A DNA stretch of 42,737 bases from positions 1 through 42,737 of the forward strand of contig CAIYXV010000100.1 in the NCBI GenBank assembly GCA_903930225.1, written 5' to 3'. This DNA is from an uncultured bacterium (GTDB lineage Bacteria; Margulisbacteria; WOR-1; XYC2-FULL-46-14; WPAF01). This document shows positions 25,301-42,737 of this stretch, piece after piece. A program made the translations under genes and the position numbers. Numbering within the stretch: position 1 is the first letter of the stretch; the number at the start of each line of letters is the position of its first letter. Below the pieces are notes generated by a model. That model had not been told where the DNA came from. It was given only the letters and a program-made list of their open reading frames with translations, and searched no databases.

Positions 25301-26621
25301 GGTAGAACCCGGCGAAAAGCATCGACTCGAACGGGCCGTGCGCCTTGGTAAAAAATACCGGATGAAGGGTAAGGAAGAAAAGCAAGTTGAACACTTTGGC
25401 CAGCTTGGTCGAAACGATCAGCGGCTGGTAGGGGAGGTGGAAATCCGGGATCTTGATCTCGTCCAGGTCGGCAGTGAGCGGGGCTAAAGCCGACTCGATC
25501 TGTTTTCTCTGATCAGCGGCCGCCAGCGCCTGAAGCGCGAGATCGGCCCTTTCGATTATGTGCTTTATATCGTCAGCGCTTAAGTGGGATTCCCCCTTTA
25601 CTTTTTCCTTAAGGTTGCTTATGCAATTTTTTGCTTCATCCGAATATTTATTTGTTCGTTGCGGCTTGCTGTCCTTGACCTTGTAAAGGTTTTCCAGTAT
25701 CTCGAACAAGTACCTTTGTTTCACATAAAGCGGGGCGCTTTCGCGCGCCAGCTGGCCGATGCGGATCCTTTGCTTGATCGTGTCGTGGATCCCGCCCGCG
25801 ACATAGGTGGTGGCCATCGCCCCCAGTCCGAATAACGCGGTCATGAATTCCTTCCCCTGCAGTCCGAGATAATCTTTCCCTACGAACATCATTAGCGCGC
25901 CGACGATCACGGGAAGGGAATTTTTCAATACCGCGGCCACTTTTTCCCTGAAAGCGGGGCAGCTTTTGAGCGCGAACGCCCCGGTCATGCCGAGCGCGGT
26001 AAAAGCGGCGCCCATCGGAATGGTTACGCTGAAAACAGAGGCAATGCCGATCGCGGCGACCGAGCCTAACGCGAGCGCCCCCATCAGGGCGACATTGCTG
26101 TGGCCGGCGCTTCCATTGGCGCGGGCGATTATCTCCATGTCTTCGGCTGACCTTATCCCGTGCTCGTAGATAGCATCCATCCGTTTGAGGTCCGGGTTGA
26201 TCGCTTCGGCCGCTTTGTCGAGCGCGGAGTCAACCCGCAGTGCGGCTGAATAAGCGGTCCGTTTTAGTCCCAGCAGATTGTCGGAGATGACATCGATCGC
26301 TCTTTCTTTCACGACCACGTGGTCGGTTTCGATGGGAATCATGCCGAGTTCGGCTAGTGCGCTGTTCCAGGTCCGCTCAGTGATGATGTTCGAGATATCC
26401 CGGACCTGTACTTGGTCGAGGCTTTTATCCTCGACCCTTAATTTCAATATCCCTTTTGAAGCGAGGATCTCATTTGCCTGAGGGAGCGAAGCCATTAGGG
26501 GGATCTGCCTGGCCATGACGGTCCGGTCCATAAAGCCGGCCGAGGTAAAGGTGCGGTTGGCCAGTCTGGTGAGACGGCTTTGAGGAAGCTCTATTTCGGC
26601 TTTCAATGGTCCGCTTGTCAT
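19326..26621 (-). CDS. Giant polytopic membrane protein with GT2/cellulose-synthase-like motifs
   Basis: A 2431-residue protein, the largest in the window. The N-terminal part has transmembrane helices at ~176-280 and ~390-450. A ~1500-residue mostly helical, charged region follows. From about 1700 onward are motifs that look like a processive GT2 synthase: LIIPRPRTMEEIVAWSISQQ (start-like), FHGNWDLDN with D1853-L-D1855 (DxD candidate), VEDSATG (2117-2123, matching the TED.ATG acceptor-base motif of cellulose-synthase relatives) and QWDRW (2155-2159, the QxxRW motif). Further helices lie at ~1970-2080 and ~2190-2400. It differs from BcsA because about four membrane helices fall between the DxD candidate and VED, so either the topology is new or only the tail is homologous. 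Most likely a synthase of the exported polysaccharide (inference). AAAGGG ribosome binding site; own cluster promoter; followed by GH8-TPR and TPR-barrel genes. Confidence 0.6.
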   Translation of the reverse strand: MTSGPLKAEIELPQSRLTRLANRTFTSAGFMDRTVMARQIPLMASLPQANEILASKGILKLRVEDKSLDQVQVRDISNIITERTWNSALAELGMIPIETDHVVVKERAIDVISDNLLGLKRTAYSAALRVDSALDKAAEAINPDLKRMDAIYEHGIRSAEDMEIIARANGSAGHSNVALMGALALGSVAAIGIASVFSVTIPMGAAFTALGMTGAFALKSCPAFREKVAAVLKNSLPVIVGALMMFVGKDYLGLQGKEFMTALFGLGAMATTYVAGGIHDTIKQRIRIGQLARESAPLYVKQRYLFEILENLYKVKDSKPQRTNKYSDEAKNCISNLKEKVKGESHLSADDIKHIIERADLALQALAAADQRKQIESALAPLTADLDEIKIPDFHLPYQPLIVSTKLAKVFNLLFFLTLHPVFFTKAHGPFESMLFAGFYLASAFYTFGALSYMGTVEQTERVDALKFPKVSDNKQERAKLMMFRYTAPGGFMNENPLECLVQDIYARIKYGAYKVIFRNAAAWTCKGQTYGFIKTAHIFEGRIKKIRGIIDQITSLSHLSVDAKDHLAFSLSVEERAWLAHRTMDDVANEAYENAAPEGQVVRFRDSIGRWHGEKVTYEALKALFADRLDEAVSDPALRVKYRKVLNNLKDAVIDQRDITLDNLHVAPAVASAIRRMDKNSTLTDDEINTLVDTVIVPYREEYLAKALRYFAIEAGIDTKRAYVISRKAALRLASERRTDPIAKLGKELILLGSRMEKKDLDDLVALLTEEYEISEQSARTLTQAVAAGNVQEEAKGMARIYREDVDLYYRLRDQYEFGRAVEAGEDGNISKAILWLANQDPAAPLTPGQAEFKTFLAEFKGWAPAKFKKLLEAFEKNTGIKRDKFTDVQWAQFLEFVLMTDKERTPAASGNTTAINIAKKIEYSAYVRGFEGLDGKSPGGRANKSRTLAEEVCVALAPKRKFGKDWAAEVKAMRQADPNLGIEGAQYLVWKKWKEEVEPIVSEVASRHVLTQVESDFIWEMVETELDRNYREVNAGTLGMYQLMSHEIDGVQKISAVMVRDFGDPASKIRKHIESAANHKEEKKLLAAQLVKSIVIPDTARAKVANLAGKVFTPLNGLPALVTDAKKQESLIDEILKIKSAKELKKTPKLMDKIRKDFGDAVTDLLMNNRTLFDLAAIVGKDGIKELFKAMSGAKTIDEAVEAIIKSLKKQIADQILKEITGLIGKGLGGKGKPSTKGWIKSFREMSTLIPRILLNGNKGKPGTKGFGKALPKVSALASRILDRDEAITVEFGGETYEMTGTSVVKYQANLSFAGAAKLLEDIVIADGKVYEEGIKIREWLVSQIEADPAPGERGRLIEKDSLKSFGDKVVGIAKTGLTAAELQTELAKIPADVMTAHMTPGNYMTLSKKKLADLLKDISGGVKAGTIARRTGESLEVTHYFSQKVGHLDYTAAKAALTNVALLGSSVGEQLGVFIRYSIKRFFEEKGGQTRIPVKIHNWIKDDVVRQLRLHSDEDLDFKAKLERGITPDDIARRLIDLIHGRKMTAKQAASEVFKAFKISETESVITMNYCEGQLSDIRANLVDIADEIAVSVYASQALGIVAAHYAVANKKLDLNDTTGIPQIAVDDYIEPLRQNGKNGAGSATVIKRFLATQKHLSLRQKNQIIELAMDLGRKLDADKKKKEHEKLYSRYEWYTIPALWTPKDKQNGAKQFLLLENGRHELIIPRPRTMEEIVAWSISQQGMTEYELDEGRILEFAIMARKIARIADRTNFTAPRAIAKIFDYTEDHRTEIKTRQEEFISQLSATLGQAEESGQEVAGVGTVFNYLDDRRFERTYFEREGSDFHGNWDLDNITSTRFPFLSSHFGYHHGILVYRGDAILQFGNNYEYQGMGTLIRAQQDKDTTLRDNMWLARGQKAPRGIVRHRHKRLRKTAFPIGYANMMPIDAVMECVKTIEAVNFTMRDNGTYDELIYGKVAKSKFYGALKRASMLIPVLGAVYAAGMGLLSTIPGLSGWQPALMVAVAGVAAAKALKLPVIPSIFATYYGVAHLAPHLGMPAEWFAGHGFWDFAAYASLGNLFIFNLMPRAGSAIAKRKLQLSEYIHTRILYNILRIVEDSATGVAMLSKDFQAAGSKGAVQWNDAVVDLGVLFGQWDRWFGGNAEYIREFLRDFYRERQSLTFSQWLDLFACYTYPMSSLATDINRYGLMFLTMFWMTALSFVNSEISSSLVLPHIGWLPLLGLLAWKTSMTAFKMSRHHEGAQKMELSETLSGLRKLLNRDTEGLAYGLGAVNRHIPTETIAQPAISRGVMVKFISDDRSAFLVTKNKVRPQLWDKAANALMNKNLFWLAGLSYAGYKVIRNNLITDFVNYGDFSSLPMGIVGFWIVYEWQKLLLGEIIVRFGNQSDDWQRKWEKRNGKKMLDLVKKTPS
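22758..22931 (-). repeat. Internal tandem duplication in the giant membrane protein
   Basis: Two adjacent segments of about 28 residues resemble each other: KGKPSTKGWIKSFREMSTLI.RILL and KGKPGTKGFGKALPKVSALASRIL. They sit in the middle of the soluble region and look like a Lys/Gly-rich hinge plus helix copied once. The DNA copies have drifted, so the duplication is old. Confidence 0.45.
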
Positions 26622-26768: not shown

Positions 26769-28088
26769 TTAGGTGGTTATCTTTTTTAATATTTTAATGG
26801 TTTCATCTAAGGAAGTCGGGGTATATATCGCTCCGCTCCCTCTTTTTCTAATGTCCCTGGTCGGAAAACTTAATGGATTGCAGTTTATCAACGTCCTTTC
26901 ATAATATCTGGCCGAATCTACTTCCCGCCAGGTCGTATCTGAGCCGCCAAAATTAATCGAGGCCACCGAACTTAAAACCATCATGTCGCGGCTTTCTTTT
27001 TCATAACCGCTTACTATTGGTAAAACCGTAAATGGATTGGAGGCTAAATATGTTGAAAAGAAACATATCCCAACTGTAATAGCATGAGAATATAATTCAG
27101 TATCAATTGTAGCCATTGGGCCGGGCCCTCCGCCTCCGATCGTATAAAATTTGTTTTTCCACAGGGCTTTGGCAAATTCAGTCAGAGTATTTTCTGATGG
27201 ATGGGTTGGGCTGAATCTGGTCCCGGCAAAAAAGGAGACCGGAAGAAAATCCGCATGGAAAAGGTGACCCTGATCAGGGTCAATAAACAGGTTGCTTTCT
27301 ATGGTCTTTGTTATTTTCTCCTCATCCTTAATGGAAAGGTGTGATTGTAACGGGCTTTTAGCGGATTTTGGAAGATTGGCGTCAATTATAACGGAAGGTA
27401 TCCCCTTATACGCTGCGGCATGCAGACAATCATCAGCTATGGGGTCGTGATTCCCCCTGAAAACAACTAAAAGTCTTCCGCTCAGAGTAGCGGTCATGGC
27501 GGCAATCGACCGCAGTGGAGGAGTAATGATTGTCACTTTTAAGAGATGGTTATCCAAAGCGCTCTTTCGGGCCAAAACTCCAATTGATAATCCGCCGTTT
27601 TTTATTAATCCATTCAGCAGGGGCTGCAAGATCCCGGAGGTTTGGAAACAAACCACTGCGATCCCGTGTTTGGCTAGAGCGGCCCCAAGATTATAAGCGA
27701 TATCTGCATCGGCCGAACTATGAATAGAAGATCCGCCATCAACAATGGTGACCATTTGACAGGGCAGGTTTGATATTCTGGCGATCTCTTTGCCAAGGAT
27801 CTTTTCAATCGATAATTTTTCCGGCTTGTAGGCTGAAATCGGGTTTAAAATTATTCTGAATTTATCCAGAAATTGTTTTTGGAGAGTTTCCAGAAATGGT
27901 TTTAGATCACTATTTTTACCAAGAAGGCCGGCTATTTCGCCGGTAAATTCATGAGAAGGCATCTTAAAAAAATCGAGAACCCTTCTATCGCCGGAATGTT
28001 GAAGGCATTCTCTTTGCGCATCATTGAAACGCGCGATTTCTCTGATCGCGCAGCCGATCCTTGCCGCGGTCTTTAAAGTGTCAATCAT
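26769..28088 (-). CDS. LOG/SLOG-like Rossmann protein 3
   Basis: One of three paralogs in the cluster. Two nucleotide-binding-like halves are visible. The first is VTIVDGGSS...ADADIAYNLGAALAKHGIAVV...TSGILQPLLNG...GGLSIGVL, the pattern of LOG (lysine-decarboxylase-like) and SLOG domains. The second has GGGGPGPMATID and RDMMVLSSVASINFGGSDTTWREVDSAR. This echoes the LOG active-site motif PGGxGTxxE, keeping the Glu but with Ser-Asp-Thr in place of x-Gly. LOG enzymes hydrolyse nucleoside monophosphates to base and ribose 5-phosphate, while SLOG proteins sense nucleotide-derived ligands; which applies here is unknown. I chose the ATG at 28088 (MIDTLKTAARIG); the track start at 28094 is a TTG only 3 nt after GAGG. 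No signal peptide. Transcribed from its own motif, ahead of the giant GT2-like gene. Confidence 0.65.
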   Translation of the reverse strand: MIDTLKTAARIGCAIREIARFNDAQRECLQHSGDRRVLDFFKMPSHEFTGEIAGLLGKNSDLKPFLETLQKQFLDKFRIILNPISAYKPEKLSIEKILGKEIARISNLPCQMVTIVDGGSSIHSSADADIAYNLGAALAKHGIAVVCFQTSGILQPLLNGLIKNGGLSIGVLARKSALDNHLLKVTIITPPLRSIAAMTATLSGRLLVVFRGNHDPIADDCLHAAAYKGIPSVIIDANLPKSAKSPLQSHLSIKDEEKITKTIESNLFIDPDQGHLFHADFLPVSFFAGTRFSPTHPSENTLTEFAKALWKNKFYTIGGGGPGPMATIDTELYSHAITVGICFFSTYLASNPFTVLPIVSGYEKESRDMMVLSSVASINFGGSDTTWREVDSARYYERTLINCNPLSFPTRDIRKRGSGAIYTPTSLDETIKILKKITT

Positions 28089-28116
28089 ATACAATTACCT
28101 CAGGAATGCTGTGTAT

Positions 28117-28196: not shown

Positions 28197-29543
28197 CTAC
28201 TTTCCTTTGCTGATTCTGTCCAGCAATTGAAGTACCCTGCTTGGAGAAGTTGCGGTATATAGCCGCCCGGTCCCTCTTTTTCTGATGTTCGCGGTTGGGA
28301 AACTTAGGGGATTGCAGTTTATCAGGGCCCGGCCGTAGTACCTTGCCGAATCGACTTCTCTCCAGGTGGTGTCGGACCCGCCAAGATTGACCGATGCGAT
28401 CGAGCTCAGCACCATCATGTCGCGGCTCTCTTTTTCATAATTCCCGACAATCGGAATGGCGCTGAACGGGTTTGAAGCAAGATAGGTGGGGAAGGAACAA
28501 AAACCGATAGTGAGAGCACTTTGGCTGACGACCTGATCGATGACCGCCATCGGTCCGGGACCTCCGCCGTTGATGGTGAAATAATTATTGCCGGTCAGCA
28601 GGCGGGCGAATTCTTCCAGATATTCCTGGTTCGGATGCCCAACGGTGAACTTGGTCCCGGCAAAAAACGATACCGGCTGGTGTTGAGGATTGAAGTTACT
28701 GGTCTGGCTCGGGGACAAAAAGAGCTGGCTTTCTAGATGCTCCCCGATCCGGTCTGCGTCAAAAAGGGAAAAATTATCCTGGAGCGGGCTTTTCGCCGCC
28801 TCAGGGATCCTGGTATCGATAAGGATGGCGGGTATTCCCTTGTATGCGGCGGTGTGGAGACAGTCATCGGCTATCGGGTCTTTTTCCCCCTTGTAAACGA
28901 TCAGCATCCTTCCGCTTAAGGTAGCGGTAAGAGCGGCGATCGATTTTACCTTTGGGGATCTTATCAGAATATTGATCAAGCTGCGGTTAGGCCTGGTTTT
29001 AGCGGCCAGTATCCCGATCGTCAGTCCTCCGTTCTCAACCGCCCCTTTAAGAAGCGGGCCCAACATTCCATTCGTTTGGTAGCAAATAACTGCGATCCCC
29101 TTTTTCCCCAGCGAAGCGCCGAGCCGATAAGCCGCATCTTCTTCAACCGAAGTGAGCGGCTTTGATGATCCGTCAACGACCGTTACCATTTGGCAGGGGA
29201 GGTTTGAAGTTCGGTTCAGCTCTTTTAATATGATCTGATCGACCGTTACCCGTTCCGGTTTATAGGCCGAGATCGGGCCTAAGCTGATGCCGAATTTTTG
29301 CCGGAGACTGGTTTTGATCCCGGTCAGGATCTCAGGGGGTTCTTGAAATCTAGTGATCACTTCCCCGACCTCGCCCGCCAATTGGGAAGATCTCATTTTA
29401 AAGAACCCGAGCACCTGCTTGTTTCCGCCGTGCTGCAGTACGTCGCGGTAAGTATCGTCAAAACGGGCGATCTCCCTTGCCGCGCAGGCGAGCCTCAAGG
29501 AAGTATGACCAGCATTCCGCACCGGCAGGTTGTATAAGCTCAT
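28197..29543 (-). CDS. LOG/SLOG-like Rossmann protein 2
   Basis: Close paralog of SLOG 3. Shared landmarks in order: ACAAREIARFDDTYRDVLQHGG, ISAYKPERVTVDQIILKE, VTVVDGSS, GGLTIGILA, ATLSGRMLIVYKGEKDPIADDCLHTAAYKG, PVSFFAGTKF, GGGPGPMAVID, YLASNPFSAIPIVGNYEKES and GGSDTTWREVDSARYYGRALINCNPLSF. The last corresponds to the PGGxGTxxE region of LOG enzymes, with Glu kept. The track start at 29546 is a TTG; the ATG at 29543 overlaps the PfkB stop as TGATG, so the two genes are translationally coupled. Last gene of the four-gene operon that begins at 35848. Coupling to a sugar kinase hints at sugar- or nucleotide-phosphate metabolism, or sensing of it. Function not established. Confidence 0.68.
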   Translation of the reverse strand: MSLYNLPVRNAGHTSLRLACAAREIARFDDTYRDVLQHGGNKQVLGFFKMRSSQLAGEVGEVITRFQEPPEILTGIKTSLRQKFGISLGPISAYKPERVTVDQIILKELNRTSNLPCQMVTVVDGSSKPLTSVEEDAAYRLGASLGKKGIAVICYQTNGMLGPLLKGAVENGGLTIGILAAKTRPNRSLINILIRSPKVKSIAALTATLSGRMLIVYKGEKDPIADDCLHTAAYKGIPAILIDTRIPEAAKSPLQDNFSLFDADRIGEHLESQLFLSPSQTSNFNPQHQPVSFFAGTKFTVGHPNQEYLEEFARLLTGNNYFTINGGGPGPMAVIDQVVSQSALTIGFCSFPTYLASNPFSAIPIVGNYEKESRDMMVLSSIASVNLGGSDTTWREVDSARYYGRALINCNPLSFPTANIRKRGTGRLYTATSPSRVLQLLDRISKGK

Positions 29544-30415
29544 CAACGCACCAGCTTTTGCGCGGTCAGGTAGCGATCGGAGATCTCTTCTTTCGAGAGA
29601 AAAAATAATCTTTGAGGGCCGTAGTCCTCTACCACGAAAGATGACATCACCTGCCCGTAAATAAAAGCGGATTCCGGACTTTTCCCCTCCGCCAGGGCGC
29701 CGATGAACCCCCCGGCAAAACTGTCGCCCCCGCCCAGGGTATCGATCGGCGATCGATTAAGCGCCGGGATCGAGAACCTTGATCTGCCGTTGTCCATGAT
29801 CGATCCGCTCCCGGCCATGTTCAGTATCGCTATTCTTACCCCAAGGTCCTTAATCGAGTGCAGCAGGGCGACGGCAGGCATGCTACCGAACAGCAGGATC
29901 GCTTCCTCGATATTCATCATCGCGATCGTGGCGTTCCGGATCGCGGTCTTTAATTGTTCCGGCGCGCCTATTGCCCAGCGCTTTTTCGTGTCTATCATGA
30001 CCGTTGTACCGGGCTGGAACTGACCGATCATTTTAAGCTGCGTTCCCGGATCATCTTCGGCGACAAAAGCGAAATCGGCCGGGGGCAGAGGGGTAGCGAG
30101 CTTCTCGTGTTCAATCGGCGTGTTCATTTGGAACTCGATAGTTTTGTGTGAGCTTGGATCATCGCAATTGGCCCTCCAGATGTTGCATTTTCCAGATAGT
30201 ATCTCAAGATGCGCCAGATCGACCCCTTTTGCCCGCAGAATTTCGAGGTCTGATCTTGGAAAATCGCTGCCGGTCTTTGATACCAGATAGGCACGGGAAA
30301 AATGCGCAGCGGAAAGGGAGGCGTAATATCCCGATCCCCCGGGGAGGACAAAGTCAGTCCCCCTTACAGTGATATGATCGATCATTGTCTTTCCCCAAAT
30401 AATCGCGCTGCCCAT
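29543..30415 (-). CDS. PfkB/ribokinase-family sugar kinase
   Basis: A 290-residue kinase of the PfkB family, which phosphorylates sugars or nucleosides with ATP. The N-terminal glycine motif is LPGGSGYYASLSAAHFS (24-40). The C-terminal signature DTLGGGDSFAGGF (225-237) carries the anion hole and catalytic base D231; consensus is DTxGAGDxFxGG, so one Gly replaces Ala. Substrate cannot be told from sequence; acceptor-side residues differ from ribokinase, fructokinase and adenosine kinase consensus. Cytoplasmic. It starts inside the stop codon of the upstream gene (TAATG) and ends overlapping SLOG 2 (TGATG), so it is tightly coupled in the operon. A role in making a sugar phosphate for the fused nucleotidyltransferases fits (inference). 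Confidence 0.88.
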   Translation of the reverse strand: MGSAIIWGKTMIDHITVRGTDFVLPGGSGYYASLSAAHFSRAYLVSKTGSDFPRSDLEILRAKGVDLAHLEILSGKCNIWRANCDDPSSHKTIEFQMNTPIEHEKLATPLPPADFAFVAEDDPGTQLKMIGQFQPGTTVMIDTKKRWAIGAPEQLKTAIRNATIAMMNIEEAILLFGSMPAVALLHSIKDLGVRIAILNMAGSGSIMDNGRSRFSIPALNRSPIDTLGGGDSFAGGFIGALAEGKSPESAFIYGQVMSSFVVEDYGPQRLFFLSKEEISDRYLTAQKLVR

Positions 30416-32604
30416 TAAAAATCGAGCTCCTTTCGGTCATTGAAGCTTAAATTATAATGCTCGAATCTGATCGTATAGGTCCGGGCTCCGGGGATCAATT
30501 TTGCTTTTACTGCTTCAATGTCCTTGCCTGAACCGTCAAGAAAAGTAACCGTATCCTCATTGATCCTGAAGCTTTTAGCCTTTTTAAAGACCTCATGCTC
30601 CTCCCAGGCGGCGGCAAGCTCTTTTGCGCGTCCGGCAAGCTCCTTACCGTCACGATCATAGTAGGTGAGGTTCACTTTTACGCTTTTCCCAAAATCGGGG
30701 ACCAGCGCTCGTATGATCCGATCGGTCATAATATATGCGTTCCAGATCGAGGTCGGAGGTTCATCCGGCGTACGATAATATTGAGGCTCATCTCGTCTGA
30801 CCGGGCTTGGGCCAAAATACATCCACCACAGGTGCGGGCAGTATTTATTGTCAATAAAAGAAAGATCGTCTAGAAGCCGCTGTTTTTCTTCCGCGGTCAT
30901 TATCCCTTCGCCGATCGCCCGTGACATGCTTTTTTCTATAAGCCGCCAATAATGGTCGGCGCCATCCGGGTTTTTATCCGAGAGGGGATCGAACGCGAAA
31001 AGCATGGCCGACAACTGTTCTTTGACCTGGCCCCTCCCTTTTTCCATGAGCTTCGCAAGCGACGCTTCGTATGAGCCCGAATTTTCCTTGAAAACCTGGC
31101 GGATCCCTTCAATGATCCTGAAATAAAGCTCCAGGTTGATGTTCCTCAGTCCCCCTTTTTCTGAAAGGGAGCCCGCTACGTCGCAGGCGGTCTGGAATTT
31201 GTGCATGTTAAGGAAAGCATTAACGGCCGGCAGGTTGACCGAACCGTCATTATTCCTCAGTAACGACCGCGTTTCCGGGTCGTTGAACATATCGGTCACA
31301 GCGGTCTGCCATGATAAAAAAGCGTACGCCAGATCCCCAATGTTCTGGTGGTATTTAATTAGTAGCTTTATCAGACGGAGTTTCTCTGGAGTTATGTCTT
31401 TTATAAATTCGAAGAGTGCAAATTCGTCGATCAGCCGGGCGCTCATCTCAGGATGTTCAAAGAACCTTACCAGTTTCCCGATGTCGTGCGTCAACACGAT
31501 CAGGTCCCTTTCGCTATCCGTAAGTGTTTCGGAGGCAGCTTTTAACTCGGCAAGGTTCTTTTTTACTCTTGTAGGCTCTCCGAACTCAAACAGTCTTCCC
31601 AGCCTTTTAAGTGAAGACCCGATAACATCCCGAGCATGGAACGCCTGCCGCGATACGGCGTAAACGTTCAAGGTGTGCGGGATCAGATTGCTCTTTATTA
31701 CTGCTTCTTCTTCCTCAGTAAGCCAGTTCTTTGATCCATGCTCCAGGATAACCGCTTTGAAAAATTCATATAGCGCCGGTCCAAACAGGTGGCGGCCCCC
31801 ATTGATAATATCCTCTATTTTAGTCGGGAGGATATGGCTGCGGATATGTGACGCGTATGCGAAGACCCCCTGGTCGAACAGATACTGAACGAGCCTTTTT
31901 TGGGGTGTCATTTTATAAGCAGGAAAGACCCCGGTCTTTTGAGTTGTCTCACCTGAACCCAGTCTTTCGGAAAATTCTATCGTCCGCTCGATCGCATTTT
32001 TAAGCGTGCCGTTACCGTCATTGTTCACGATGATATCGAACTCCGGCAGGCGGGGGGCGTAGCGTTCTCTGGTCCCGCGGACCCTTTGTATCCTGGTTTC
32101 AAGGGCGGGCCCGGATTCTCTCCCCCTTGATATCAGACGCTGCTCGAGGATCTCGGGCGAGACGTCCACGAATACCGCGCCGAACCTTGCATTCTGCGGC
32201 AGCGCGGCCCTGACCCCGGCGATAATATTGGGACCGGCGGCCAATACCCCCTTGAAACCGGGCGCAAGTTTTGAGATAAGTTCATCCCCGTTAACGCCGT
32301 AAAGCGCATTGCCGACTCGGTCGACCCCCATGAACGAGTCTGTTCTGACCCGTTCTAGGAATTCATCCGGAGCAAGGTAGTTGTAATCTCTTCCGGCGAC
32401 TTCATCGGCCCTGATCTCCCGGCTGGTGTGAAGCACGATCTCGGTGAAGCCTCTTTCTTTAAGCGCGGCGACGATCGATGATTTTCCGGAAGCGGTATCA
32501 CCGCAGATCGCGATAATAAGGGGCGGGATGGGGCCGGGACCGGGTATTCGACCCGATATTTTGGGCGTTCCCGGGACCCCTGATAATTTATCGATCATCG
32601 CCAT
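30415..32604 (-). CDS. Guanylate-kinase-like / HD-domain fusion protein
   Basis: A 729-residue protein with an unusual domain pair. Residues ~28-205 form a guanylate-kinase-like P-loop domain: GDTASGKSS (35-43), the GMP-site pattern TSREIRADEVAGRDY (60-74, cf. TTRxPRxGExxGxDY) and the lid-like SRGRES...ETRIQRVRGTRERY. Residues ~310-470 contain an HD phosphohydrolase-type domain with LTHDIGKLVRFFEHPEM (H373-D374, H384). The C-terminal ~170 residues include a conserved-looking YFGPSPVRRDEPQYYRTPDEP stretch and end RFEHYNLSFNDRKELDF; I do not recognise this part. Possible roles are nucleotide kinase plus phosphohydrolase, or a nucleotide-signal module controlling the pathway. Start has GGGAGG; it lies 16 bp after fusion B and overlaps the PfkB gene by one base. 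Confidence 0.75.
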   Translation of the reverse strand: MAMIDKLSGVPGTPKISGRIPGPGPIPPLIIAICGDTASGKSSIVAALKERGFTEIVLHTSREIRADEVAGRDYNYLAPDEFLERVRTDSFMGVDRVGNALYGVNGDELISKLAPGFKGVLAAGPNIIAGVRAALPQNARFGAVFVDVSPEILEQRLISRGRESGPALETRIQRVRGTRERYAPRLPEFDIIVNNDGNGTLKNAIERTIEFSERLGSGETTQKTGVFPAYKMTPQKRLVQYLFDQGVFAYASHIRSHILPTKIEDIINGGRHLFGPALYEFFKAVILEHGSKNWLTEEEEAVIKSNLIPHTLNVYAVSRQAFHARDVIGSSLKRLGRLFEFGEPTRVKKNLAELKAASETLTDSERDLIVLTHDIGKLVRFFEHPEMSARLIDEFALFEFIKDITPEKLRLIKLLIKYHQNIGDLAYAFLSWQTAVTDMFNDPETRSLLRNNDGSVNLPAVNAFLNMHKFQTACDVAGSLSEKGGLRNINLELYFRIIEGIRQVFKENSGSYEASLAKLMEKGRGQVKEQLSAMLFAFDPLSDKNPDGADHYWRLIEKSMSRAIGEGIMTAEEKQRLLDDLSFIDNKYCPHLWWMYFGPSPVRRDEPQYYRTPDEPPTSIWNAYIMTDRIIRALVPDFGKSVKVNLTYYDRDGKELAGRAKELAAAWEEHEVFKKAKSFRINEDTVTFLDGSGKDIEAVKAKLIPGARTYTIRFEHYNLSFNDRKELDF

Positions 32605-32620
32605 CTGGATACCTCCCGGA

Positions 32621-35600
32621 TCAGAAGCCGATATTCTTTAGGATATCAGCCGCCCGCCTGCCCGTGAACGGAACGTTCTTGGTATAAGCCTCTCTTCCGT
32701 CCTGGGCTTTTTTAAATATCTTAAAGACCTTCTCTACCTGCTCTTTTGTTAGTGGCAGGTCGGTCAATAAAAAGCCGCTCCAATCGTTGAATTTTGGAAG
32801 GATATTTCCCTGAGAATCAATATACCCATGCTCTATGAGATCGTCCCAGATCCTCTCTTTTTCTTCCCCCAGCCCGTCAAGATCCGATCGGTTGACCGTT
32901 CCAAACCCGAAATATCTAATAAAGTGATAACGAAGGTCTTCGTTGCCGATGTTGTCTTCGATCAAACGGTTGTCAGGAATTTTTTTCAGGTTAAGATCAA
33001 GGGGAAAGATGGTGGAAAGCTCGGTCCCGTCGTTAAGCGGCATGCTCCCGAACATTACCCCGTCATAGAAGCCGAACTTGATCTTTTTCTTGCCTTTGGG
33101 CGTCTCTATCTCAAAGTTCTCGCCGGCTTTTCCGTTAAAACGGTAGATCAGGGTGGCGCCGTCCCCGGCCACGCTTGGGTCGATCTCCTCTATCCGGCTG
33201 TCGTATATCACCGTATTCGAAGGTATGTAGAGGTCTCCCTCGCCGGTCCAGTAGATGGTTGAATCTAGTATCACCACATTGCTGCCGACATGGATCTTTC
33301 CTCCCTTTGTGCTCTTGAAGGAGGTGTTGCCGCCGATATAAACATGGTCCCGGTTCGGGATCACAAGCAATTCCTGCCCGGTCACTTCATGGTCGACCGC
33401 GCTCCCTTCGCGGACATTGCTAATCGTCCTGGCGACCGCGCGTTTGGCGGGATTTTCGTCAACCAGAAGCTGCCAGGCGTTGAAGAACTCCCGTTTTGTC
33501 CCGGTGTCGAGCCAGAAACCGTCGATCCTTCCGGCGGCGAGGCCGTTCTCCTTTTCATCAAGCTTGAGCGCGGTCTCCCAAATCGTTTTCCAAAGGACAT
33601 ACTCCACGCCGTCCGGCTTGCGCATCATCCATTCGTCCTTAGCCCCTTCGCCGAAACGGTTCTTGACCGCGCGGCAGGCGAGGAAGAGTTCTTTCCAGTT
33701 ATTTTTCAAAGAAACATTCCGGCATCTTTTGAAATACCAATTTTCAGGAGGGGTATCGCCGTCGTTGCTGAACCCGCCGAACTCGGTCAGGATCTCAATT
33801 GACGCGTCCCTTATCTCTTCCCAGACCTCTTTTGAATTATTGGTAAGCGGGGCGGGTGACAGGAGGTCGACAATGCCGCCGAAATACTTTTCTTGAAGCG
33901 CGATCGTTTCAAGTGAAGAGAGAACAATATCGTTGGCAACGACCCAGAGAAGTCTCCAGTCCCGGATATCCCATTCTGATTGATCAAAGGCCTTCTTTAA
34001 TTTCTTTATTAGGCCTTCGTTGCTCTCAGGGACCGTATCGAGGATCTTTTCGCGGTCGCCCTTGCTGACCGTTCCGGTCACGCGCAGAGTCCCTGCGTTT
34101 TCATCTTTTTTTAAATAGCTTAAGCCCGGGGCGCTTTTAAACGCCTCAATGGTCGCTTCCGGAAGCCGGTAAAGTTCAATCTCATACGGGGCCATCCATT
34201 TTTCAAGCGTGTTCGAAGATACGACCGGCTCGTCATGCAGCTTGGACCAGTCGGGGGTCTGGCCAGCGTAAGTGAAAAGGACCGGCTCGCCGGTCTTATA
34301 AGACGGGCGGGTATAGTGTTCCTCATCGCCGTAAAGCACGGCGATATCCCGGCGGATCAGCTTAACCATGCTGTTCATATCTATCTCTTTTTGTTTGGCC
34401 CTTCTCGCCAGCTCCTGGATCTTTACCACCGAGATCTTTTCTTTGAAGCCGAGCACCGCGCCGGTGATCTTGTCGACCAGCACGATGCCGAGCTGTTCCA
34501 GGTGCTTCAGTTTTTTGTCCCCGGTCGTGATCCCTTCGCCCAGCACCTGTTCCGGAACGGTAAGATTTATTATTCCGTGCTCATCTTCGGAGAGAAGATG
34601 TTCTCCGACCGTTATCCTCCCGGCAAAAGCATTGTCGGACGCCGCCAATATCAGCCATTCCCCGGGAGGGAGCTGCTTGGCCAGCATTTCACAGGACAGG
34701 GTCACGATCTGGTTTAGCGAACGATTCCCGACCATCGCCGCCCCTTTATCGCCTTTTTCCTGTTGGGTGATAGGGGTCTCTCTCTGCGCCATGCCGGAGC
34801 CGTTCAGCCCGATGAAGATCGGATGGTTCTCGTCGCATCTCGCGACCCCTTCATTTATGAGAAAAATAAAAGTCCCGAGCGCTCCCCGATAACGCGGATC
34901 GAATTCTTCCGACAGCCCGCGTCCGTACCCGAGAACTTCGCTGATCGTGTCCCTTAGCCGGTGGTCTCCCTTGAGCATTTTTAATGTCCGCTGGGTCCTT
35001 CCGGGAAGGGTCGAGACCATTTCGTTGCATATGTAGACCATGGTCTTGATCGGGATGCTGGGTTCGTTGAGCGCGCGGTGGGCAAAGTCAACGCCGTTCT
35101 TGCCATAGATCATCTGATGATAAAGCTGGTTTATCCCGAAGATGGTCTGTTCGGGGGGGGTGGGGCTTTCCACCGGCCTGAAGTCGCCGGGAAGAGTAAT
35201 GAATTCGGTGCCGCGCTCGATCTGGTGTTCCAGGAAATGCTGATGAATGCCGCGCAAAAGATCCATCCGGTGGAACCGTGACCAGAATACCGGACGGATC
35301 GCACCTTCGACGCCGGCTCTTAAGGCGCTATCAACCCCGTGGTTGATGCTTCCCATGCTGTATTCCGCGTCGGGATTTACGGACGGGAACGAATAATCGA
35401 GCGGACTGTTCTCCTGCGGGCCGTAGATGGAATAGATGCTTCGTATCCCCTTTATTGACGCTGGGCGGAAAGAGAAGACCATTCCCATCGCGTCGTGTAC
35501 ATGCATGACCGATATCTCAAGCTCTCCCGATTCAACGAACTTCCAGAGCGCGAGAGAGAAGGCGCGCATTTGATCATAAGCTTCCTTGCCGTGGGGATAT

Positions 35601-35848
35601 GTTTCCTTGAAAGAATTGCCGAGGATATGCACATATTCTTTCCCGGCGTTGCTTACTCCCGGGCTTCCGGGGATCACTACATGCGAATCGAAGCCGTGAC
35701 CCCTCTGGTAATTGACGATCGTCCCGACAATGCTCCCGGTATTGCCTGACTGCTTGATCCCCGGATACTCCGGGCTGACGTGGAGAATGATCCCTCTCCG
35801 GTTCGTAAATTGATATAGTAACGGTCTGAGAAAAACTCTACCTTCCAT
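32621..35848 (-). CDS. Fusion B: GT5-like domain, nucleotidyltransferase, beta-helix (1075 aa)
   Basis: Residues ~18-200 look like the N-terminal half of a glycogen/starch-synthase (GT5) fold: ILHVSPEYPGIKQSGNTGSIVGTIVNYQRGHGFDSHVVIPG and HVHDAMG (116-122). The usual C-terminal GT-B half is absent. From ~343 a nucleotidyltransferase begins, FIGLNGSGMAQRETPITQQ.KGDKG, a variant of GGxGxRLxPxTxxxPK, then WLILAASDNAF and, late, GFWLDTGTKREFFNAW. Next come left-handed beta-helix-like rungs (VYIGGNTSF, IHVGSNVVILDSTI, LYIPSNTVIYDSRI). Compared with paralog A it has two extra modules: ~60 residues near 590-650 (with LRVTGTVSKGDREKIL) and ~70 near the C-terminus (with GYIDSQGNILPKF). Both paralogs end AADILKxIGF. 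Probably activates a sugar phosphate to a nucleotide sugar and binds a donor or glucan (inference). First gene of the four-gene operon. Confidence 0.65.
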   Translation of the reverse strand: MEGRVFLRPLLYQFTNRRGIILHVSPEYPGIKQSGNTGSIVGTIVNYQRGHGFDSHVVIPGSPGVSNAGKEYVHILGNSFKETYPHGKEAYDQMRAFSLALWKFVESGELEISVMHVHDAMGMVFSFRPASIKGIRSIYSIYGPQENSPLDYSFPSVNPDAEYSMGSINHGVDSALRAGVEGAIRPVFWSRFHRMDLLRGIHQHFLEHQIERGTEFITLPGDFRPVESPTPPEQTIFGINQLYHQMIYGKNGVDFAHRALNEPSIPIKTMVYICNEMVSTLPGRTQRTLKMLKGDHRLRDTISEVLGYGRGLSEEFDPRYRGALGTFIFLINEGVARCDENHPIFIGLNGSGMAQRETPITQQEKGDKGAAMVGNRSLNQIVTLSCEMLAKQLPPGEWLILAASDNAFAGRITVGEHLLSEDEHGIINLTVPEQVLGEGITTGDKKLKHLEQLGIVLVDKITGAVLGFKEKISVVKIQELARRAKQKEIDMNSMVKLIRRDIAVLYGDEEHYTRPSYKTGEPVLFTYAGQTPDWSKLHDEPVVSSNTLEKWMAPYEIELYRLPEATIEAFKSAPGLSYLKKDENAGTLRVTGTVSKGDREKILDTVPESNEGLIKKLKKAFDQSEWDIRDWRLLWVVANDIVLSSLETIALQEKYFGGIVDLLSPAPLTNNSKEVWEEIRDASIEILTEFGGFSNDGDTPPENWYFKRCRNVSLKNNWKELFLACRAVKNRFGEGAKDEWMMRKPDGVEYVLWKTIWETALKLDEKENGLAAGRIDGFWLDTGTKREFFNAWQLLVDENPAKRAVARTISNVREGSAVDHEVTGQELLVIPNRDHVYIGGNTSFKSTKGGKIHVGSNVVILDSTIYWTGEGDLYIPSNTVIYDSRIEEIDPSVAGDGATLIYRFNGKAGENFEIETPKGKKKIKFGFYDGVMFGSMPLNDGTELSTIFPLDLNLKKIPDNRLIEDNIGNEDLRYHFIRYFGFGTVNRSDLDGLGEEKERIWDDLIEHGYIDSQGNILPKFNDWSGFLLTDLPLTKEQVEKVFKIFKKAQDGREAYTKNVPFTGRRAADILKNIGF

Positions 35849-35873
35849 GATTTTAGCTACCCCTTATATTGTT

Positions 35874-35901
35874 ATATCGGAAGGTAATTTGGTGGATTTC
35901 A
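35874..35901 (-). promoter_or_regulatory. Cluster promoter motif, copy 5 (fusion B operon)
   Basis: Minus strand TGAAAT-N16-CGATAT, preceded at the -10 by TTC and followed by AACAATATAAGGGG; 25 nt upstream of the ATG. It starts 6 nt after the terminator hairpin of the preceding gene, so this operon is insulated from it. Confidence 0.75.
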
Positions 35902-35907
35902 CTTGAA

Positions 35908-35953
35908 AAATGGGACATCCTGAAAATTATCGGTCTTTTCAAGATGTCCCATT
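35908..35953 (-). terminator. Rho-independent terminator after fusion A
   Basis: On the minus strand AATGGGACATC-TTGAAAA pairs with TTTTCA-GGATGTCCCATT around a ~9-nt loop and is followed by TTTTTC. It sits a few bases after the stop of the 940-residue gene (35960) and directly before the promoter of the next operon. It is the clearest intrinsic terminator in the window. Confidence 0.8.
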
Positions 35954-35959
35954 GGTGGA

Positions 35960-38782
35960 TCAGAACCCTATTTGTTTCAGTATGTCGGCCGCGATCATTC
36001 CAGCGAACGGCATCGGTTTTTTGATCACATCCACTCCGTCGCCGTAGTACTGCCTGAAATGATACCGGAGATCAGGGTTGGTTATATACTTTTCGATCAG
36101 AGAGAGATCCGGCTTTTCCTTGAGGTTCAGGTCAAGCGGGAAGACGGTAGAGACCTCTGATCCATCCTTTAATGACATGCTCCCAAACATGACCCCGTCG
36201 TAAAAACCGAACTTTATTTGTTTCTTGCCCTGAGGCGTGTCGATCTCAAAGGTCTGCCCGGTCGTTCCCTTGAACCGGTAAATAAGGGTGGCGCCGTCGT
36301 CCCTTACGGTCGGATCGATGTCTTCGATGCGGCTGTCGTAGATCACCGTGTTCGAGGGAATGGTAAGATCGCCTTCGCCGTTCCAGATGATAACGGAGTC
36401 CCTGATGATCACATTGTTGCCGATGTGTATCTTCCCGCCCTTTGCGCTGATGAAGGAGGTTTTTCCACCGATATGGACGGTGGCCGGGTTCTGATAAAGG
36501 AGGTTTTCCTGCCCGGTAATGCTGGGTTCCACCCCGCGGAGGGAAACATCGGACAACTTTCTCACGGTCTCTCTGATGGTCGGGTCTTCATGAACGAGCA
36601 TGAGCCAGGCGTTGAAAAATTCTCTTTTTGTACCGGTATCGAGCCAGAAGCCGTCGATCCTTCCCGCGGCCAGCCCGTTCTCCTCTTCGTCCAGTTTGAG
36701 CGACGTGTCCCAGATCATTTTCCAGGAATCGTACTCGATCGCAGCCGGCTTGCGCTTCATCCATTCGTCCTTGGCGTTGACCCCGAACTTATGCTTGATG
36801 GTTCGGCAGGCAAGGAACAGCTCTTTCCAATTGGCTTTCAGCGAAAGTTCCCGGTTCCGCTTAAAGTACCAGTCCTTCTGCGGCGGATCATTCTCGGCGT
36901 TAAAACCGCCGAACTCAGCAAGGATGGAAATGGCCTTATCCCTTATTTCTTTCAAGACGGCGGTGGATTTTGTCGGGTCCGATTCATCGGTCATCTTTGC
37001 GATCCCACCGAAGTATTCTTGCTTGAGGGCAATTTTTTCGAGGGATGAGAGCACGATGTCATTGGCTATGATCCAAAACATCCTCCAGTCCCGGCGGTCA
37101 TAACCGGATTTTTCCTTGAAACGGAGCATCCATTTTTCAAGCGTACAGGAAGAAACGGCCGGCTCGTCGTGGAGCTTTGACCAGTCCGGAGTTTGTGCGG
37201 CGTAGGCGAACAGGAACGGTTTCCCGTCACGGTGCGAAGGCCGCATATAATGTTCTTCATCGTTGTAAAGATCGGCGATATCCTTTCTGATCAGTTTCAC
37301 CATGCTGTTGGTATCGATCACGCCGCCGGTCCTCCGGGCGAGGTCCTGGATCTTGATCACCGGGATCTTTTCTTCAAATCCCAGCACCGCACCGGTGTTG
37401 GGATTGACCAGCACGATGCCGAGCTGTTCCAGCGGTTTTAATTTTTCATCGCCGACCGTTATGCCTTTGCCCAGGACCGTTTCCGGGACCGTGAGATTGA
37501 TTATTCCGTGTTCGTCCTCGGATAAAAGATGATCTCCGACCGTGATCCTTCCGGCAAAAGCATTATCGGAAGCGGCGAGGATCAGCCATTCCCCGAGCGG
37601 AAGCTGTTTGGCCACCATCTGGCTGGCAACGGTAACGATCTGGTTAAGCGTCCGGTTCCCCACCACCGCGGCGCCCTTATCGCCCTTTTCCTGCTGGGTT
37701 ATCGGCGTTTCTCTCTGCGCCAAGCCGGAAGCATTGATGCCGATGAAGATCGGTGCTTCCGCAGACAATCTCTTTGCCCCTTCCCCGATAAGATAGACAA
37801 AGGTGCCCAGCGCTCCCCGGTACAGCGGATCGAATTCCTGGTGGAGGCCGCGGCCGTAGCCGATGATCTCATTTATGGAGTCCTGCAGGACATGGTCGCC
37901 TCTTAAGGCGTCAAGCGCCCGTTTGGTCCTTCCCTGGATATCTGAAACCGTTTCATTGCAGATGTAAATTAAGGATTTTACCGACTGGCTTTTTTCAGCC
38001 AATGCGCGGTTCGCGAATTCGATTCCGGTTTCTCCGTAGATGATTTCATGGTACAGGATGTCGAGGCGGTGTTTGGCGGAGTCCGGCGGTGTGGGGCTGT
38101 CGACCGGACGCCAGTTCCCGGGAAGTTCGATGAAGATCACGCCCCGGTCCTTTTCGGCCTTCAAAAAATGCTGGTAAGCTCCGTTCATCAGCGTGGTCCG
38201 GTGCGCGGTGGACCAGAAAATGGAGCGGAAGGAACTCAAGACGCCCGCCCTCAAGGCGCTGACCATGCCGCGATGGGTGAGTCCCATGCTTATTTCCGGA
38301 TCGGAGTTCAATGCCGGAAAGGCGTAATCAAGGGGATTCGGGTCCTGGGGCCCGTAGATCGAATAAATGCTCCTGATTCCCATCAGCCTTTCGGGACGGA
38401 GAGCAAGGACCAACCCCATCGCATCATGCGCATGAATGAGCGTGATCGGCGTGTTCGAGGATTCCACGAATTTCCAGAATTCTTTTGCGTAGCTGCGGAG
38501 CTGTTGATAGGCGCCTTCCCCCAGGGGATAAGTTTCCTGCAGGGAATTTCCGACGATATGAACATAATCAAGACGGGGATTTACCAGTCCGGGTCTTCCC
38601 GGAATGACCACCTGCGCGTCGAACCCGTTGCTTCTCTGGAATTCAACCAGGTTTTGAACGATCGAGCCGACGTGTCCGCACTCATTGACACCGCGGTATT
38701 CCGCGGTCAGATGCAGGATCGCCCCTCTGCGGTTTGTGATCTGATGCAGGACCGGTCGTATAAATGTAGAACTCTCCAACAT
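35960..38782 (-). CDS. Fusion A: GT5-like domain, nucleotidyltransferase, beta-helix (940 aa)
   Basis: Paralog of fusion B, collinear over most of its length. Order: GT5-like N-domain (GAILHLTAEYRGVNECGHVGS; IHAHDAMG), a linker, the nucleotidyltransferase motif GINASGLAQRETPITQQ.KGDKGAAVVGNR followed by WLILAASDNAFAGRITVGDHL, the sugar-nucleotidyltransferase-like GFWLDTGTKREFFNAW, beta-helix rungs (VHIGGKTSF, IHIGNNVIIRDSVI, LTIPSNTVIYDSRI), then FGFYDGVMFGSM and the end AADILKQIGF. It lacks the two extra modules of fusion B, so it may be the simpler ancestral form. Catalytic Lys or Arg positions cannot be assigned with certainty. Cytoplasmic. CGGAGG before the ATG; own promoter and own terminator, so monocistronic. 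Confidence 0.65.
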   Translation of the reverse strand: MLESSTFIRPVLHQITNRRGAILHLTAEYRGVNECGHVGSIVQNLVEFQRSNGFDAQVVIPGRPGLVNPRLDYVHIVGNSLQETYPLGEGAYQQLRSYAKEFWKFVESSNTPITLIHAHDAMGLVLALRPERLMGIRSIYSIYGPQDPNPLDYAFPALNSDPEISMGLTHRGMVSALRAGVLSSFRSIFWSTAHRTTLMNGAYQHFLKAEKDRGVIFIELPGNWRPVDSPTPPDSAKHRLDILYHEIIYGETGIEFANRALAEKSQSVKSLIYICNETVSDIQGRTKRALDALRGDHVLQDSINEIIGYGRGLHQEFDPLYRGALGTFVYLIGEGAKRLSAEAPIFIGINASGLAQRETPITQQEKGDKGAAVVGNRTLNQIVTVASQMVAKQLPLGEWLILAASDNAFAGRITVGDHLLSEDEHGIINLTVPETVLGKGITVGDEKLKPLEQLGIVLVNPNTGAVLGFEEKIPVIKIQDLARRTGGVIDTNSMVKLIRKDIADLYNDEEHYMRPSHRDGKPFLFAYAAQTPDWSKLHDEPAVSSCTLEKWMLRFKEKSGYDRRDWRMFWIIANDIVLSSLEKIALKQEYFGGIAKMTDESDPTKSTAVLKEIRDKAISILAEFGGFNAENDPPQKDWYFKRNRELSLKANWKELFLACRTIKHKFGVNAKDEWMKRKPAAIEYDSWKMIWDTSLKLDEEENGLAAGRIDGFWLDTGTKREFFNAWLMLVHEDPTIRETVRKLSDVSLRGVEPSITGQENLLYQNPATVHIGGKTSFISAKGGKIHIGNNVIIRDSVIIWNGEGDLTIPSNTVIYDSRIEDIDPTVRDDGATLIYRFKGTTGQTFEIDTPQGKKQIKFGFYDGVMFGSMSLKDGSEVSTVFPLDLNLKEKPDLSLIEKYITNPDLRYHFRQYYGDGVDVIKKPMPFAGMIAADILKQIGF

Positions 38783-38839: not shown

Positions 38840-40216
38840 TCATTTAATGATCCCTCTCAACATCATCAGGGTCTCTTCCGGGGTGGTGGCCGAAAGGAGC
38901 GGGGAGCTTGATCTTCCTCCGATCCCTCTGAAATATTCCACGTCGAATTCCGGCACGCAGTTGATCAGCGGCTTTCCGAACTGTCGGGCGCTTACGATCT
39001 CGTCGGCGGTGGCGTGGGATCCGCCAAGATTGATGGTCGCGACGCTTGAAAGGGTCATAAAATCAGCCCGTTCCATCTTAAGATTCCCGATCACGGCGAT
39101 GTCTATATGCGGATTGATCGCCAGATAGGTCCTGAAGAACGCTATCCCAAGCGTCATGGTTTCTTTCTTCTGCGCGGCTCTGGCGATCGCCAGCATATCG
39201 CCCGGCCCGGACCCGGTTATGGGGAAGCATCCGGTGTCGCACATTCCGGCGACCACTTTCTCAAGAAAATCGGACTCGACGCGGTAAATATTTTCGGAGG
39301 TCTGGCTTTTGGTTGAAGCCAGAACGGAGATCGGGGTACGCGGCCCGGAGCCGCTCAGGTAATGATAGGCTTTGTCGACATCGCCGTCCATAAATAGTCT
39401 TGCTTTTACCTCTTCGAAAGCGTCTTCCCAGCGAACGTGGCTTTGAAGAGGGTGTGCCATCGGTTTTGGCAACTGATTGTTCTCGCCGATGAAGATGACG
39501 TGGGTCCCGCCGTAGGCGGCGTCCATTGCCGCTCTGAGCGACGCGCTGTCGGAGGTTCCGTCCAGGACAAGTATTATCCGGCCCGACATGGCCGCGATCG
39601 TGGTCCTTAAAGTTCCGTTGTTATAGGGGGTTACGACCGGAAGTTTTATCAGGCCGCTGGTTTCGCTGATGTGGTCGCGGTGCACGCGGACCTGTTCTTC
39701 CGAAAGGATCCCCACGGTCAGGCCTTTTTGGTCCGACATGCCTCTTAAGAACGGCGTGAGCATTCCGGTGGTTTTGTCGCAGACCGCGACCACTCCCGCT
39801 TCCGCAAGTTTTTTACCCAGTTCGTAGGCGGCGTCTGAACTCCGGGAATCAAGTATCTTGTCCCCGCCCATCACGGTTATGGTCTTGGCGGGCAGATTGG
39901 AGATGCGGTCCTTTATTTCCCGGAGGATTATCCTTTCCGGGGGCAGGTTGTTGTAAGCGGAAACGCGTTCCAGAATAGCGTCAAGCTTGAATTTTGAGGC
40001 CACGTTCTCGAGGATGGTGCGGGCTTCGGCCTCGTTGTCGGTGAGTTTGGCTTGGAGGAGATTGGCGACCTCATGGGTTATGATCGATGCGGGCATGGTC
40101 ATGAAACGTATGGCCTCCGGGTTCGTCCCGTGCTGGATCCCGTCCCGGTACTGCATGCGCGCCAGTTCGCGGATGACGCAGCCCACTCTGGCGGCGGTGT
40201 TTAAACTTGCGGCCAT
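38840..40216 (-). CDS. LOG/SLOG-like Rossmann protein 1
   Basis: A 458-residue paralog of SLOG 2 and 3, somewhat diverged. It keeps AARVGCVIRELARM near the start, VSAYNNLPPERIILREI, TVMGGDK...SDAAYELGKKLAEAGVVAVCDKTTGML, GLTVGIL, MSGRIILVLDG, ITGSGPGDMLAIARAA, FRTYLAINPHIDIAVIGNLK and LSSVATINLGGSHATADEIVSARQFGKPLINC. In the last motif, GGSHATADE is closer to LOG-type PGGxGTxxE than in the other two. The ~65% spacing-conserved layout supports two Rossmann-like halves. Role unknown: phosphoribohydrolase, nucleotide sensor or sugar-phosphate binder. AAGGAGG lies 9 nt before the ATG, the best ribosome binding site of the cluster. Monocistronic by its flanking promoters, though no terminator is seen. 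Confidence 0.65.
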   Translation of the reverse strand: MAASLNTAARVGCVIRELARMQYRDGIQHGTNPEAIRFMTMPASIITHEVANLLQAKLTDNEAEARTILENVASKFKLDAILERVSAYNNLPPERIILREIKDRISNLPAKTITVMGGDKILDSRSSDAAYELGKKLAEAGVVAVCDKTTGMLTPFLRGMSDQKGLTVGILSEEQVRVHRDHISETSGLIKLPVVTPYNNGTLRTTIAAMSGRIILVLDGTSDSASLRAAMDAAYGGTHVIFIGENNQLPKPMAHPLQSHVRWEDAFEEVKARLFMDGDVDKAYHYLSGSGPRTPISVLASTKSQTSENIYRVESDFLEKVVAGMCDTGCFPITGSGPGDMLAIARAAQKKETMTLGIAFFRTYLAINPHIDIAVIGNLKMERADFMTLSSVATINLGGSHATADEIVSARQFGKPLINCVPEFDVEYFRGIGGRSSSPLLSATTPEETLMMLRGIIK

Positions 40217-41834: not shown

Positions 41835-42737
41835 TTAATGTTCGCCTCCGTTGTCGAGTGCGATTACCACTTCCCCTTCTTCCCCGGTTTTTGCCAACTT
41901 GCGCAGTTCGGCAATGTCGAATTTTTCGAGCATTTGGCAAAATCTGCCGGTTTCCGCCGGGGAGATCTCAATGCTCGCTACCTCGAACTTGTATTCGCGG
42001 TAAAGGTCGACCAGAAACATGAAAAATCTGGCGCGGTGGACCGGGTCCTCGATCCTGCCCATCAGCTTTTTCAGCGGATAAATGGCGAATGAGCCCAGGA
42101 TCTTCTGGAAAGCGGAACGGTTGAGATTTCTTGTCCTCCAGAACTTTTCCTTTTCCCTTTCCACCGCTTTCATTTTTGTCAGATTGATCCTTGCTCCCGC
42201 CGATTTCAGGACATAACCGTCCCACCGCGATTGTCCCTTTGATTTTTCCCCGAACCCCCGGCTCTTGAAACGGGCTTCAAGGTCATTTAAGTCTTTGGCA
42301 TCGATCAGCGCCTCATGGATTCTCTTTAATCGTTCGTGTTCGATGGAATCGATCACGGCGCGGGCTCGGGTGTCCACCACACTTAGTACTACCATGGCAT
42401 CGATCAGTACTTTCCGCTTTTCCGCATCCGGGGAAAGTTCCCAAAATTTCAGGATCTTATTATATTTGCTGTCCTCGTCGATTATAAAAGTGCCGAAAAT
42501 GAGATGGTAATAGACCAGGGTCCTTATCCATTCAAGCTCCGGTTCGCTGACCAGGGCGAGGATCGCGCTTCGCAGCGGGGCTTCGCCGAGCAGATTGCGG
42601 CCGTGGGCGTGATGGTTCTTGTTCTCGATGAAGTTCCCGATATCGTGCAGGAGGATCCCGAGCAGGAAAGGCATCATCATGGAGGCGCTCATGTCCCGGA
42701 ACCTTAGCGAGAGTGTCCAGCAGTCTGCCGCGTTGGA
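41835..42737 (-). CDS. HD-domain protein, 5' end beyond the window
   Basis: The frame stays open from the stop at 41835 through the right edge. The track ATG at 42692 is internal or optional: the 15 upstream codons (SNAADCWTLSLRFRD) read on without a stop, so the true start is probably outside. The visible part begins with an HD phosphohydrolase motif, LLGILLHDIGNFIENKNHHAHG, in which His-Asp and the following His pair are the metal ligands. A helical region follows with VVLSVVDTRARAVID and a basic segment KAVEREKEKFWRTRNLNR; it ends with an acidic tail. HD proteins act as nucleotidases or (p)ppGpp/cyclic-nucleotide hydrolases; the substrate here is unknown. It ends 61 bp before the nucleotidyltransferase gene, and a second HD domain occurs in the fusion at 30415-32604. 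Confidence 0.7.
   Translation of the reverse strand, partial: SNAADCWTLSLRFRDMSASMMMPFLLGILLHDIGNFIENKNHHAHGRNLLGEAPLRSAILALVSEPELEWIRTLVYYHLIFGTFIIDEDSKYNKILKFWELSPDAEKRKVLIDAMVVLSVVDTRARAVIDSIEHERLKRIHEALIDAKDLNDLEARFKSRGFGEKSKGQSRWDGYVLKSAGARINLTKMKAVEREKEKFWRTRNLNRSAFQKILGSFAIYPLKKLMGRIEDPVHRARFFMFLVDLYREYKFEVASIEISPAETGRFCQMLEKFDIAELRKLAKTGEEGEVVIALDNGGEH

Follow-up and report, generated by a model that had tools for sequence, protein, structure and literature searches.

The gene pair and its surroundings

The window examined here, a stretch of 42,737 nucleotides from an uncultured bacterium of the Margulisiibacteriota, is one entire contig of a 1.69 Mb genome and ends with that contig at position 42737. 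Its minus strand contains two intact open reading frames, 32621-35848 (P0001, 1075 aa) and 35960-38782 (P0002, 940 aa), exactly where an earlier note on this DNA had placed a pair of fusion genes. They are tandem paralogs (64% identity over 939 aligned residues) and the combination of a GT5 half with a GlgC-like nucleotidyltransferase (NTase) is apparently a new domain architecture, rare and undescribed. Chance reading frames were ruled out, the pair being long, conserved and of low dN/dS, and so was a phage origin, alignment A1 having no viral match. The features of the locus are the following.

26769..28094, minus strand: third SLOG/LDcluster4 protein
28197..29546, minus strand: second SLOG/LDcluster4 protein
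29543..30415, minus strand: PfkB-type sugar kinase; its homologue in genome G016 lies beside a fusion pair and is fused to an ARMT1 domain
30415..32604, minus strand: fusion of guanylate-kinase-like and HD domains, 729 aa, P-loop and HD motif intact
32621..35848, minus strand: fusion protein 2 (P0001, 1075 aa), architecture as in P0002 with a longer insert
33149..33349, minus strand: P0001, short beta-helix-like segment, about residues 834-900
33431..34843, minus strand: P0001, NTase domain, about residues 336-806, with R356, K368, D405, E470-K471 and D781
34781..34801, minus strand: P0001, NTase loop GSGMAQR, residues 350-356
35159..35848, minus strand: P0001, residues 1-230, homologue of the GlgA (GT5) N-terminal domain
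35960..38782, minus strand: fusion protein 1 (P0002, 940 aa), consisting of GT5 N-half, linker, GlgC-like NTase with a large insert and short beta-helix-like tail
36278..36475, minus strand: P0002, short segment at about residues 770-835 resembling a left-handed beta-helix (profile similarity to hexapeptide proteins, weak)
36563..37774, minus strand: P0002, NTase domain, about residues 337-740, with R357, K369, D406, E471-K472 and D715; insert at about 553-703 preceding FWLDTGT
37712..37732, minus strand: P0002, NTase loop ASGLAQR, residues 351-357
38087..38782, minus strand: P0002, residues 1-232, homologue of the GlgA (GT5) N-terminal domain; K15, G18 and H161 lost, E9 and D137 kept
38840..40216, minus strand: SLOG/LOG-type protein (LDcluster4), 458 aa
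40316..41785, minus strand: stand-alone GlgC-like NTase with hexapeptide repeat, 489 aa, in which E-K of the EKP motif is apparently E-Q; glgC model E 3.9e-13, far below the equivalog cut-off
41835..42692, minus strand: HD-domain protein at the contig end

The same-strand run continues to very large proteins and to a GH8 protein with TPR, a solute-binding protein, a GlmS-like protein, GH42 and GH94. The three SLOG/LDcluster4 paralogs (about 450 aa each, 33-55% identity) have two SLOG-like stretches each, and a 2431-aa protein (19326-26621) shows hydrophobic stretches and no Pfam family apart from a marginal PqqD match. Several ordinary NTases are encoded elsewhere in the genome, whose ordinary GlgA (G000:C62:1146-4319) adjoins an 828-aa NTP-transferase protein, an arrangement seen likewise in other genomes of the class.

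The N-terminal GT5 half

The N-terminal domain of both proteins had been described as resembling only the first half of glycogen synthase, and this description was upheld. The isolated N-halves of P0001 and P0002 match GT5/GT4 N-domain models at E 3e-5 to 6e-4, under the Pfam cut-offs, and the homologue P0004 from G016 matches PF08323 over 195 residues (15-209) with 34-37 bits, above the cut-off of 22.7. In the 383 genomes searched, a profile built from four fusions (the window pair and the pair of G016) retrieved two ordinary GlgA proteins (E 1.8e-7 and 2.1e-5) from distant genomes that do not belong to the phylum; the gene for one of the two directly follows a gene that reads like glgB. A GT-B/GT5 relation is thus real, since P0004 passes the PF08323 cut-off and the fusion profile retrieves true GlgA. 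Narrow GlgA and NTase profiles lacked the power to settle the question; their GlgA matches fall in one register and the reversed controls do not. A hit in a 592-aa frame of G267 (L118) was attributed to chance similarity, the DNA there being GC-rich.

In GlgA, the acceptor is bound by Glu9 (Glc+1), Leu19 and Asp137, and ADP-glucose by Lys15, Gly18 and His161 together with Arg300, Lys305 and Glu377 of the C-half (PMC6210743). Alignment of the four fusions with Escherichia coli GlgA shows that their N-half is colinear with GlgA residues 1 to about 245 and keeps the equivalents of Glu9 and Gly17 in all four proteins, and that of Asp137 in the window pair only. Unlike GlgA, the fusions have no second, donor-binding half (they show no GT1/GT5 C-half match and the NTase domain comes next instead), and the donor contacts of the first half are also lost: the position of Lys15 (the lysine of KTGGL) is occupied by H/R/E/Q across the four proteins, that of Gly18 by Y/Y/H/N and that of His161 by V/V/Y/Y. 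Because the donor half is absent and these three residues are replaced, the GT5 half alone cannot be a working glycosyltransferase, and it would instead be a non-catalytic module for binding or regulation. Binding of glucan in particular is weakly supported, as the fusions retain neither of the acceptor residues Tyr95 and Tyr165 and the window pair lacks Leu19.

The N-half has been maintained by selection. The window paralogs show a dN of 0.27 with saturated dS, and their identity is 75% in the front of the NTase, 68% in its back part plus the beta-helix and 54% in the N-half; the pair, GT5 half included, is under purifying selection. In the tree, P0001 groups with P0002 (support 1.000) and the two G016 copies group together (0.999), therefore the tandem pairs either arose twice or were homogenised. 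Selection and the two separate tandem pairs suggest that P0001 and P0002 are a functional pair, perhaps acting as a mixed oligomer.

These data bear on two suggestions of the earlier note, namely that the fusion channels an activated sugar or that its GT5-like half has become a binding domain. For channelling, a bifunctional enzyme would make ADP-glucose with its NTase and use this product directly with its GT5 half. The order of the domains (GlgA part followed by GlgC part) and the glucose-activation theme of the operon would suit such an enzyme, and the linked stand-alone GlgC-like gene to which the note appealed is real; however, with the donor-binding half absent and Lys15, Gly18 and His161 replaced, the protein could work in this way only with a second protein that provides the missing half, and Pfam reveals none in the operon, which makes channelling very improbable. 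A binding domain fits the retention of Glu9 in 4/4 fusions and of Asp137 in the window pair as well as the purifying selection, and is favoured.

Known polypeptides that likewise carry two glucan-pathway domains, as given in the fusion passages of a review, include TreS-Mak/Pep2, GlgA-GlgB (some Chlamydiae) and GlgB-MalQ (Neisseria) (PMC11046441). In these, complete enzymes are linked (with an inactive GlgB part in the chlamydial protein), whereas the window fusions join a half-enzyme to a GlgC-like NTase, a pairing that those passages of the review do not mention (PMC11046441). No GlgA-GlgC fusion was found in the open literature, subscription papers lying mostly outside the search.

The nucleotidyltransferase domain and beta-helix-like tail

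The assignment of the central domain to the NTases, also proposed earlier, is supported by conserved motifs and PDB matches. Pfam gives no match to PF00483 or any other NTase family in either window protein, and the TIGR02091 (glgC) model matches three of seven family members, at best with E 0.0005, every curated cut-off being missed. In a profile search of the PDB the top match was a plant ADP-glucose pyrophosphorylase (E 0.019), followed by bacterial GlgC and several beta-helix proteins, and the alignment to GlgC brings F-EKP and FWsDvGT into order.

The seven proteins aligned comprise the four fusions and proteins of genomes G005 (1250 aa), G006 (1595 aa) and G009 (1477 aa) that share the NTase domain and in which no GT5 half was seen. 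Identity between subgroups is only 20-29%, and yet the sugar-NTase motifs (loop G and R, KG, D, EK and DxGT) are invariant in 7/7, in the order found in GlgC. They correspond to GlgC Arg32, Lys42, Asp142, Glu194-Lys195 and Asp276, the equivalence of D with Asp142 being assigned only by the hydrophobic-strand-D(N/Q) motif and the downstream spacing, as MAFFT placed Asp142 elsewhere; the equivalent of Trp274 is kept in the four fusions. GlgC has Arg32, Asp142 and Asp276 as critical residues or metal ligands (PMC5474683), and its Glc-1P site includes Glu194, Trp274 and Asp276 (PMC4890535). Conservation of the loop GSGxAQRETPITQ, which had been put forward as a check, holds for the catalytic skeleton G...R...KG, invariant in the seven proteins, but not for the letters, which read ASGLAQR in one window copy and GGDGERG, GGAGTRS or GGKGTRM elsewhere; a canonical GGxGTR or GNGTR loop occurs in three of the seven.

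The domain differs from GlgC in its spacing and in the GlgA N-domain that stands in front of it. From R to K there are 11-12 residues (10 in GlgC), whereas from K to D there are 37-39 in all seven proteins compared with 100 in GlgC, a shortening by about 60 residues that removes the GTADA/adenine-contact segment between K42 and D142, the region with the GlgC adenine contact Arg115 (PMC5474683). As this spacing is constant despite the low identity, the shortened stretch is a fixed feature and not decay. The window pair also has an extra stretch of 150-220 residues ahead of DxGT. Based on these conserved positions, nucleotidyltransferase activity of the fusions is plausible, and the domain would represent a new, abridged branch of a known kind of enzyme.

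The loss of the Arg115 region means, on the other hand, that the NTase could bind without catalysing, and a pseudo-enzyme has to be considered in which both halves are inactive and the protein, comparable to a non-catalytic regulatory subunit, serves as a sensor or scaffold, with a nucleotide sugar or a glucan as its ligand and the true NTases or the polysaccharide machinery under its control. The dead GT half, the NTase devoid of its nucleotide-contacting segment, the second GlgC-like gene with a longer core in the same operon and the several ordinary NTases of the genome would all agree with this explanation. It is nonetheless less likely than an active NTase, as all five residues of catalytic type stay unchanged across the seven proteins despite their low overall identity, binding-only domains usually lose some of them, and within the pair conservation is highest in the front of the NTase.

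The beta-helix named in the note is a tentative assignment with indirect evidence: several left-handed beta-helix (hexapeptide) proteins are among the weak PDB matches and align with the same, correct C-terminal columns. AlphaFold2 models of both fusion types, computed from a four-row alignment, were unusable (pLDDT 33 and 34).

Relatives, neighbouring genes and possible function

The NTase family was found in 5/74 genomes of the phylum examined, all belonging to one class. G016 (isolate Prado142), which is of the same class and of another Margulisiibacteriota family, has its own duplicated fusion pair, adjoined as in the window by PfkB, P-loop/HD and NTase genes. Exact-pattern scans of genome and viral contigs gave no match beyond the G016 record, and neither these scans nor the profile search of one sample of 383 genomes found a fusion outside the phylum.

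Relatives of the P-loop/HD protein occur in all five NTase-family genomes as well as in G013, and such fusions with a guanylate-kinase-like P-loop part are represented by window 30415-32604, L018:4336-7224 and L019:393-4046. Within these five the gene is close to the NTase; the one exception is G009, in which the P-loop part and the HD part sit at the ends of two contigs, the HD part on a contig other than that of the NTase, and probably belong to one gene. An NDK-like N-terminal domain is present on the P-loop/HD protein in G005 and G006, and probably also in a third genome; its profile has NDKs as the only PDB matches (E 0.23) and matches the Pfam NDK family at E 0.0034 over the catalytic-His region. 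The P-loop/NDK-like/HD polypeptide may possibly combine an NMP-to-NTP kinase chain with a phosphohydrolase. An extra, diverged PurA (adenylosuccinate synthetase) accompanies the housekeeping copy in G005, G006 and G009, beside the locus in G005 and adjoining the HD piece in G009, and is absent from the window genome and G016. Two of these paralogs, L018:2860-4350 and L043:1548-3116, share about 29% identity and lie beside an NTase or P-loop/HD locus. In G013 (L042:7509-14225) three consecutive NTases adjoin an MbnB/TglH-like fusion that is related, through its C-terminal part, to the HD portion of the window P-loop/HD protein.

This gene content allows for a module in which the P-loop kinase/NDK-like/HD protein and the PurA-like enzyme would prepare a particular NTP, and the NTase would join it to a sugar phosphate made by PfkB. 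The presence of P-loop/HD proteins in all five genomes, the NDK-like domain of G005 and G006 and the extra PurA of G005, G006 and G009 speak for such a module, but the NDK similarity is marginal and the window genome and G016 have no PurA paralog, so that it is considered improbable. Equally speculative is a broader proposal, according to which one class of Margulisiibacteriota has a compact GlgC-related NTase lineage that, together with co-encoded P-loop/NDK-like/HD kinases and in some members a PurA paralog, would form a self-contained pathway that converts a special nucleotide into a special nucleotide sugar; in the window, this version would have gained a recycled GlgA N-domain as an acceptor- or product-sensing part.

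The preferred reading, with a probability of about one half, is that the fusion may be a diverged GlgC-like sugar NTase encoded in an exopolysaccharide-type operon, its GlgA N-domain being catalytically dead and serving to bind a glucan or acceptor or to regulate. Judging from the conserved catalytic residues, the NTase core would couple NTP and sugar 1-phosphate to give a nucleotide sugar, and the GlgA N-domain, having lost donor binding, would bind a glucan or oligosaccharide or provide a surface for regulation or assembly. The short beta-helix might aid oligomerisation as in GlgC, the paired paralogs would probably form a mixed oligomer, and the product would feed the polysaccharide-type operon that holds the genes.

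Half a glycosyltransferase under selection, joined to a member of the enzyme class that makes its donor, would be a natural example of one half of a GT-B enzyme put to a new, non-catalytic use, and the abridged NTase core offers a test of how far the GlgC fold can be reduced. The genes also suggest that an uncultured phylum has a nucleotide-sugar locus of a kind not yet described.
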